From Parabacteroides sp. Marseille-P3160 (lineage in GTDB: Bacteria > Bacteroidota > Bacteroidia > Bacteroidales > Tannerellaceae): a DNA stretch of 64,000 nt. The translations under genes were made by a program, and so were the position numbers. Shown in pieces: positions 22,047-23,602 of this stretch (its first letter is position 1; every line of letters starts with the position of its first letter). The DNA lies in contig NZ_LT799418.1 in the NCBI RefSeq assembly GCF_900162725.1, forward strand, positions 70,549-134,548. Reading direction: 5' to 3'. The notes below the pieces were generated by a model, which saw only the letters and a list, made by a program, of their open reading frames with translations, did not search any database and had not been told where the DNA came from.

Positions 22047-22820
22047 ATGGATATGAAAAAAACAATCATCCTTTCTTTTCTCTTTCTGGTATGTGTTGCG
22101 TTCGCAAGCCGGGCCCAGTTTCAACCGGCTTCTTTTACCGTTAACGGTTTTACCCTGCCCTATCAGGTACTGTTCCCTCAAGGCTATGACGAATCGAAGG
22201 CTTACCCCTTGGTTCTCTTCCTGCATGGAGCCGGTGAGCGGGGAGATGACAATCAAAAGCAATTGGCGAACGGAAAAGACTTTTTAGTGAATCATTTCTC
22301 GTCCGAATATCCGGCGATTGTGATCGTCCCGCAATGTCCTTCCGGAAGTTATTGGGCGGATGTTATTCGCCATCAGGTCGGCAGCCGGATGAGTTTTGGC
22401 TTCGGGATAGGGGAACCTACGGCGCCAATGCGTACTTTAATGCTTCTGGTACAGGATTGGCTCTCTTCCGGCAAGGTAGACATCCGCCGCGTTTATGTCG
22501 GCGGCCTCTCGATGGGCGGTATGGGGACCCTGGAGATTCTGTGGCGGATGCCTCAGGTATTTGCTGCGGCCTTTCCCATCTGTGGAGGCGGTGAGACAAA
22601 CCGTTTGCCTGCTTATGCCAAACATACCGCTGTCTGGCTTTTCCATGGTGCAGATGATTCGGTGGTTCCGGTTCGTTTTTCCAGGGAGATCGCTGCGAAG
22701 CTGAAAGAATTGGGAGGAGAAGTCAAATATACCGAATATCCGGGTATCGACCATAATAGTTGGGATCAGGCCTTTTTGGAAAAAGACCTCGTTCCCTGGT
22801 TATTCAAGCATACATTGTAA
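22047..22820 (+). CDS. Secreted alpha/beta-hydrolase (carboxylesterase/PHB-depolymerase type)
   Basis: A 257-residue exported hydrolase. Signal peptide ends near RAQ (residue about 24). The alpha/beta fold shows the oxyanion region VLFLHGAGERGDDN, nucleophile elbow GGLSMGG with Ser155, acid in HGADDSVVP and catalytic His in GIDHNSW, so the triad is complete. Members of this family are esterases; within the PUL it may remove acyl groups (acetyl or succinyl) from substituted beta-1,2-glucans, which fits because natural cyclic beta-1,2-glucans can be succinylated. That role is inference. It is 70 bp after the GH144 gene and is the last gene of the PUL. Confidence 0.85.
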   Translation: MDMKKTIILSFLFLVCVAFASRAQFQPASFTVNGFTLPYQVLFPQGYDESKAYPLVLFLHGAGERGDDNQKQLANGKDFLVNHFSSEYPAIVIVPQCPSGSYWADVIRHQVGSRMSFGFGIGEPTAPMRTLMLLVQDWLSSGKVDIRRVYVGGLSMGGMGTLEILWRMPQVFAAAFPICGGGETNRLPAYAKHTAVWLFHGADDSVVPVRFSREIAAKLKELGGEVKYTEYPGIDHNSWDQAFLEKDLVPWLFKHTL

Positions 22821-22855
22821 AGGGAACCTCAAGATCTCATTATCCTTTCTCCATC

Positions 22856-22899
22856 GTGTGGAAAATCCACGGTTTTAGTGTGGAACTTTTCCACACTTC
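22856..22899. repeat. 22-bp-period palindromic repeat upstream of a sigma-54 promoter
   Basis: GTGTGGAA occurs at 22856 and again at 22878, exactly 22 bp apart. The first copy forms GTGGA-AAA-TCCAC and the second the palindrome AGTGTGGAA-CTT-TTCCACACT (22877-22897). It lies 36 bp after the esterase stop and about 95-140 bp before a -24/-12 promoter, so it could be an upstream activator site, or a 3'-end repeat of the class also seen at 30455 and 58804. Confidence 0.6.
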
Positions 22900-22992
22900 T
22901 ACACTTCCTTGGCTTTTGGCACAGAATGTCTTATCTAGATAATACACAACATACCAAACATTTATACTCCTCGTGCTTCACTTTCCTTTTTT

Positions 22993-23008
22993 TGGCATCG
23001 CTCTTGCA
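22993..23008 (+). promoter_or_regulatory. Sigma-54 (-24/-12) promoter
   Basis: TTGGCATCGCTCTTGCA places GG at 22994-22995 and GC at 23006-23007 with the required 10 bases between, matching the YTGGCACG-N4-TTGCW consensus. Transcription would start near 23018 and give a leader of about 60 bases before the ATG at 23080. No TAnnTTTG box is seen at a comparable place. Confidence 0.7.
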
Positions 23009-23079
23009 TTATAGATAGCAGATGGGATGATCTAAAGAAGAACAACATCTTATTAGTAACAATAAAAAAAAGTGAAGTT

Positions 23080-23505
23080 ATGAAAGCAATTATTTTATCA
23101 GCCGCTCTTTTGATGAGCGCAGGCATTTTTGCAAGTGAAAAGATGTCTAACAATTTACCGGAAAGCAATGTAGTACCTGAAGTACAGGCGATCGCTCAGT
23201 CAGCCGACGGATTTGTCCCTGTAAAAGTTGAGGATTTGAATGAGAAAGTGGTAGGCGCTTTGAAGGTTTATGCCGAAACAAATGATATTACGGCTCTTTC
23301 CTACAACGCTGAAAAGAAATTGACGAAGGTTGACCTGAGTGCGAAAGCAGACGGTAGTACCAAGACCATTATCCTTGACGATGAAGGTAAGGAAACGACA
23401 GCAGACGCCGCTGCTCCAGCAGAATCTACTCAGCCGACAGAACCGACCGAACCGGATCAACCGACTGAACCGGAAGGAACTATTCCTCCAACAGAAGTCC
23501 TATAA
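23080..23505 (+). CDS. Small secreted acidic protein with Pro-Thr-Glu tail
   Basis: A 141-residue protein of unknown family. A signal peptide (MKAIILSAALLMSAGIFAS) is followed by a compact domain of about 65 residues (DGFVPVKVEDLNEKVVGALK, then AETNDITALSYNAEKKLTKV) resembling small PepSY-like periplasmic domains of Bacteroidetes in pattern only, then a linker of TEPTEP-type repeats (residues about 117-141) likely disordered. No Cys, no lipobox. It stands alone, behind a sigma-54-type promoter and before a strong terminator, so it is a dedicated regulated unit. Function unknown. Confidence 0.75.
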   Translation: MKAIILSAALLMSAGIFASEKMSNNLPESNVVPEVQAIAQSADGFVPVKVEDLNEKVVGALKVYAETNDITALSYNAEKKLTKVDLSAKADGSTKTIILDDEGKETTADAAAPAESTQPTEPTEPDQPTEPEGTIPPTEVL

Positions 23506-23562: not shown

Positions 23563-23602
23563 AAGCCTGTAGGAAAGCGTTCCTGCAGGCTTTGTCTTTT
23601 TA
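23563..23602 (+). terminator. Intrinsic terminator of the secreted-protein gene
   Basis: AAGCCTGTAGGA pairs with TCCTGCAGGCTT (one G-T pair) around a 6-base loop, followed by TTTGTCTTTTT. Confidence 0.85.

Follow-up and report, generated by a model that had tools for sequence, protein, structure and literature searches.

In Parabacteroides sp. Marseille-P3160, a small exported acidic protein appears to be made under the control of a dedicated circuit composed of a phosphorelay, an NtrC-type bEBP and sigma-54. We consider this the best explanation of the sequence evidence, with a probability of about 0.83. The window analyzed here, a stretch of 64,000 nucleotides of this genome, carries the target gene and the region upstream of it, in which a conserved paired repeat and a sigma-54 promoter would form a switch that is probably turned on by one sensor-kinase/activator pair.

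The target gene (23080-23505) is separated from an alpha/beta-hydrolase-like gene (22047-22820) by an intergenic region at 22821-23079, and it is followed by a terminator (23563-23592); therefore, it forms a lone unit. The preliminary description had reported a lone 141-residue exported protein with an acidic Pro-Thr-Glu tail, a -24/-12 element with a 10-bp GG-to-GC spacing, and two palindromic sites 95-140 bp upstream of this promoter. The coding sequence with its signal peptide and terminator, the spacing of the element and both palindromes were confirmed in the window sequence. The features are as follows:

22856..22872, + strand: imperfect dyad GTGTGGAAAATCCACGG, at 22-bp spacing to the other copy; probable second activator site
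22878..22896, + strand: perfect dyad GTGTGGAACTTTTCCACAC (8+8); predicted bEBP enhancer site, conserved in relatives
22897-22904, + strand: half-site TTCTACAC, directly after the perfect dyad
22993..23009, + strand: predicted sigma-54 -24/-12 promoter TGGCATCGCTCTTGCAT, conserved upstream of orthologues
23080..23505, + strand: exported-protein gene, 141 aa; signal peptide about 1-18, PepSY-like (DUF2874-type) alpha-beta unit about 44-107, acidic tail about 108-141
23563..23592, + strand: Rho-independent terminator, closing the single-gene transcript

The promoter element combines a -24 TGGCA with a -12 TTGC, its GG (22994-22995) and GC (23006-23007) being separated by exactly 10 bases (TTTTGGCATCGCTCTTGCAT), and transcription is predicted to start at about 23019. 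The centres of the two dyads lie ~108 and ~131 bp upstream of -24. A genome-wide search for the -24/-12 pattern returned 19 matches versus 17 for the reversed control; therefore, a -24/-12 match by itself proves nothing. The perfect dyad was the sole match in the 4.76 Mb genome at ≤1 mismatch, and at ≤3 mismatches one match was observed in the window versus 0.16 expected. This uniqueness supports the earlier proposal that sigma-54 control is, in this genome, dedicated to one small secreted protein. An AT-rich near-perfect palindrome, TGTCTTATCTAGATAATACA, was also observed at 22927-22946, between the dyads and the promoter.

Canonical -24/-12 elements were found elsewhere in the same genome, just upstream of Hsp20, HtpG and Zn metallopeptidase genes (G000:C5:1140539, 3232622 and 1213995; loci L026, L038 and L027). 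The dyad was absent from the stretches scanned at these three sites, and the genes were therefore rejected as regulon members; they are predicted to constitute a second, chaperone-type sigma-54 group.

Seven other genomes of the family contain eight homologous genes between them, and further homologues occur across the order. Five homologues, one of which repeats a family locus, came from named genomes (Dysgonomonas capnocytophagoides, a Tannerella MAG, a Proteiniphilum MAG and two Bacteroidales MAGs). Upstream of most of the relatives' genes lie the dyad GTGTGGAA-N3-TTCCACAC and, at a comparable distance from it, a TGGCA...TTG[C/T/G] promoter; both elements also recur upstream of kinase-linked genes. 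Both elements were strongly enriched in 28 other promoters relative to dinucleotide shuffles, with a Fisher combined P of about 1e-20 for each, a value that overstates the case because the genomes are related and non-independent. Across 22 aligned promoters, TGG, A and TTG were invariant at fixed spacing, although the rows had been selected for holding GG and TG, which makes those columns invariant by construction; the base after TTG was C, T, G or, once, A. Checked at the orthologues, as had been suggested, the -24/-12 element and the palindrome were mostly kept upstream of family members, with TTGG or TTGT rather than TTGC at -12 in some and one or both elements missing in a few. Given this conservation across relatives, we regard the -24/-12 element and the dyads as both real.

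The distance from the dyad centre to -24 had a median of 108.5 bp. Measured from the dyad start, the promoter lay about 94-127 bp away in most of the loci that encode a protein and 137-138 bp away in most of the RNA class described below. Such values approach integral numbers of helical turns and are no more than suggestive of strict helical phasing (p was 0.004 with a 10.5-bp period and 0.09 when only distinct spacings were counted). Two further dyads were noted. In G351 (L058), the homologue, a 308-aa exported protein with three PepSY-like units, has a dyad matching at 15 of 16 positions, and no clear -24/-12 was seen in the 330 bp checked. G228 (L100, about 7177) has an exact dyad, GTGTGGAAAAATTCCACAC, followed by a TTGGCAC element, about 0.6 kb before an outer-membrane-like protein gene; the 15 kb examined there contained no L007-type regulator (see below).

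The genome encodes rpoN and, in answer to the proposed search for NtrC-type activators, six clear bEBPs, one of which, L007, is the likely activator. L007 (C5:4503149-4504495; 448 aa) is an NtrC-type regulator with REC, sigma-54 activation AAA+ and Fis HTH domains (Pfam), in which Walker A and B are intact. Convergent with it is the gene of its kinase (G000:C5:4500771-4503152), a 793-aa membrane hybrid with HisKA-HATPase-REC-Hpt architecture (Pfam), the Hpt match falling slightly under the Pfam cut-off. The pair lies about 346 kb from the exported-protein gene if the contig is circular, a distance that counts against the assignment, and no exported-protein gene was found beside it (C5:4500771-4504495).

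When the dyad alone was used as the query, 7 of 393 Bacteroidales genomes matched, with zero control matches. The dyad lay within about 3 kb of an L007 orthologue in five of the six other matched genomes, and in two of those it occupied the gap between a divergent kinase gene and a small exported-protein gene. The order bEBP, convergent kinase, divergent exported protein was also observed in three named genomes, and L007 orthologues were located near the exported-protein gene in 14 other loci. Such L007-type regulators share 50-62% identity with L007 itself and ≤41% with the five other bEBPs of this genome, and they conserve the Fis recognition region GNK..AA..L.IDRKTLYNK. Across 124 genomes of the family, a top-tier regulator was present in 9, including 8/8 with the protein (P 8e-12; the tier boundary was set afterwards, where scores drop from 521 to 491 bits). 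The ninth genome (G123; L163 9138-9480) carries the kinase, the regulator, the dyad and the -24/-12 element at the usual spacing, with no detectable exported-protein gene before a terminator-like stretch, which would reflect either gene loss or an RNA output. The present genome and G026 have the regulator at a separate locus from the exported-protein gene, which has nevertheless retained its dyad wholly or partly. Taken together, conservation, the presence of rpoN and the finding of a specific activator support the original assignment of a sigma-54 promoter with NtrC-type activator sites.

The L1 loop of L007 reads GSFTSA, a non-canonical form that calls for caution. GSFTSA or GAFTSA, not GAFTGA, was found in 13 of 15 orthologues, and GSFTGA in two. 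Three other response-regulator bEBPs of this genome (L003, L005 and L006) carry GAFTDA instead of GAFTGA; therefore, L1 loop variants seem common in this group.

From these observations, we infer phosphotransfer, regulator binding, activation, an upstream signal and a function of the protein along the following lines. The hybrid kinase would sense an envelope signal and, via its REC and Hpt modules, pass phosphate to L007. Once bound to the GTGTGGAA-N3-TTCCACAC dyads, some 108 bp upstream of -24, the regulator would loop the DNA and use ATP hydrolysis to open sigma-54 polymerase at 22993-23009. The resulting mRNA would cover this one gene and encode a small, acidic, periplasmic protein containing a single PepSY-like unit. 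In the envelope, this protein most likely has a binding or buffering function, acts as a feedback partner for the kinase, or does both.

Several other explanations were weighed against this circuit. The sigma-54 promoter may be real and be served by a different bEBP of this genome, such as L004, which lacks a receiver and lies in the lptE operon, in which case the linkage to L007-type regulators would be coincidental. Five further true bEBPs in the genome speak for this, but the 8/8 co-occurrence, the physical linkage in 14 loci and the dyad-only search, which arrives at an L007-type regulator, all point to L007, and we consider the involvement of another activator unlikely. It is slightly less probable still that the -24/-12 element is a chance match, with a primary-sigma promoter driving the gene and the dyads binding a different repressor or activator. 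The genome count that equals the control, a sigma-70-like pair at 22916-22943 in the same intergenic region and TTGG at -12 in several relatives would fit such an arrangement. However, the TAnnTTTG box, named in the preliminary description as the contrary sign, was absent from the intergenic region 22821-23079 even with one mismatch; TGG, A and TTG hold their fixed spacing across the aligned promoters (rows selected for GG and TG); and the linked regulator is itself a sigma-54 activator. As for the dyads being a mobile repeat, or the "22-bp repeat class" raised earlier, the two copies do lie 22 bp apart, but this figure is just their spacing: no further copy of the perfect dyad was found in the genome at ≤1 mismatch, and its position is kept in other genera, which makes this reading highly improbable.

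Within the L007 and sigma-54 circuit that we favor, the exported protein may act mainly as a negative-feedback partner of the kinase rather than as an effector. CpxP and ZraP are negative-feedback partners of their kinases, and the divergent pairing of kinase and protein genes in most relatives, together with the single small output, would suit this role. The output nevertheless differs between lineages, including unrelated acidic proteins and apparently even RNA, which would be odd for a specific kinase-binding partner; we regard a mainly feedback role as possible but somewhat doubtful.

The 141-aa protein has a signal peptide and a mature pI of 4.2, and no lipobox, Cys or His was found in its sequence. 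Homologues are mostly about 105 aa in length and lack the acidic tail; two homologues have two units. The structure model is confident only for residues about 44-107, a single unit with the BLIP/PepSY-like alpha-beta fold, which aligned to individual halves of DUF2874/PepSY-like proteins, with Z 9.2 and rmsd 1.6 over 60 residues for the best, 3u1w_C, and Z 8.0 for 4hbr and 4k61. Known PepSY_like/DUF2874 (PF11396) periplasmic proteins of Bacteroidales include BDI_1975 (3u1w), BVU_2987 (3due) and BT_0923 (3db7) (PMC2954215). Unlike these proteins, which have two or more units, the present protein has one unit and a long acidic Pro/Thr/Glu tail. It had no match to PF11396, distant relatives reached 14.8-18.8 bits versus the Pfam cut-off of 28.3, and searches of Pfam, NCBIfam and PDB sequences with the protein family gave chance-level matches only. 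A stress or envelope role is plausible. The suggested nitrogen-linked function found no support: no nitrogen link was detected, and a NifA-like bEBP (L002) is present in the genome without a tie to the gene.

In the ZraPSR system of Escherichia coli, the ZraS kinase and the bEBP ZraR act with sigma-54 and the periplasmic protein ZraP. The circuit described here resembles ZraPSR in architecture only, its parts being unrelated: a membrane kinase is paired with a regulator of the NtrC type, the sigma-54 promoter has sites upstream of it, and the output is a small exported protein. In most relatives the output gene is likewise divergent from the kinase. In contrast to the helical metal-binding chaperone of the ZraP/CpxP type, the output here has no Cys or His and is modeled as an alpha-beta PepSY-like fold. 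Furthermore, the kinase is a hybrid with REC and Hpt, the phylum is different, and the gene is unlinked in this genome. A DUF2874-type exported-protein gene adjoining a two-component system is also known from Porphyromonas gingivalis, where PG0717-PG0718 adjoin HaeSR (PG0719-PG0720) in a context conserved in Bacteroidales (PMC3772042, PMC3764172). However, HaeS, with 427 aa (PMC5706477), is a kinase of a different type and much shorter than the hybrid of 793 aa described here, and the literature text covered contained no sigma-54 link for PG0717-PG0718/HaeSR.

The cassette was also found with other outputs. In several genera, the genes downstream of it encode acidic exported proteins that are unrelated and have a high content of Glu, Pro, Ser or Lys. 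The pI was below 4.75 in 22/22 cassette outputs checked versus a third of 24 other short exported ORFs, a control that is small and non-independent. Other genera of the same family carry a paralogous regulator with 47-54% identity, a near-match dyad at most of these loci and a TTGGCAY promoter, with GG-N10-GC or GT in many and a divergent -12 (TCGC, TCGT or TTTC) in many. Downstream of the paralogue promoter there is no gene; instead, 15 aligned genomes share a terminator-ended segment whose GTTTCTACATT core is invariant, at the following loci:

L164 7447-7600, + strand: candidate small RNA, adjoining a paralogous bEBP
L165, L166, L171, L172, L173, L174, L177, L178, L180, L182, L184, L185, L189 and L190: further loci of the candidate small RNA

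The longest ORF inside the segment comprises 27 codons. Three members folded better than their shuffles, largely through the terminator; RNAalifold returned no consensus structure for the alignment, and Rfam gave no match in the loci scanned. We therefore treat the segment as a candidate sigma-54-controlled small RNA. At L167 (G029) and L188 (G027), a 21-codon hydrophobic ORF (MKKVFVVIVVLTIVAALTIFA in L167) lies downstream of the cassette and is followed by a TTTAAGTCTGCAAAAC segment and a terminator, as in the candidate RNA. There is, in our estimate, an even chance that these loci constitute one Bacteroidales cassette family, in which regulator, dyad and promoter are conserved and outputs are swapped. 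These would be a PepSY-like acidic exported protein in the present genome, unrelated exported proteins of low complexity and acidic composition in other genera and, where the paralogous regulator is found, an RNA of roughly 90-170 nt that ends in a terminator and contains the GTTTCTACATT core.

The preliminary description held that sigma-54 control is rarely described in gut Bacteroidales. This is roughly right for experiments, but such control has been reported or predicted in the phylum: in Flavobacterium psychrophilum, sigma-54 is reported to govern genes for chaperones and envelope stress along with exported proteins whose function is unknown (PMC9723704), and sigma-54 control of chaperones has been predicted in Bacteroidia (PMC12316311). 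Whereas activators were not matched to promoters in the passages of the F. psychrophilum study covered (PMC9723704), regulator, dyad and output are linked here. Similar to the quorum regulatory RNA of Vibrio fischeri, a sigma-54-driven small RNA of Proteobacteria (PMC10162802), a short RNA seems to be driven by a bEBP and sigma-54 in the relatives; unlike it, the candidate is unrelated in sequence and belongs to a different phylum. No earlier description of this kinase-bEBP-sigma-54 circuit was found in open-access text.

Few sites or targets have been assigned to Bacteroidales sigma-54 activators in the searchable literature. Here, comparative evidence links one regulator, its DNA site, a promoter and a single output, and this link is directly testable. 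If the cassette family is real, its terminator-ended RNA would be a sigma-54-controlled small RNA of Bacteroidota. The exchange of outputs, candidate small RNA included, would be unusual for such a circuit and may help to reveal what small exported PepSY-like proteins do.
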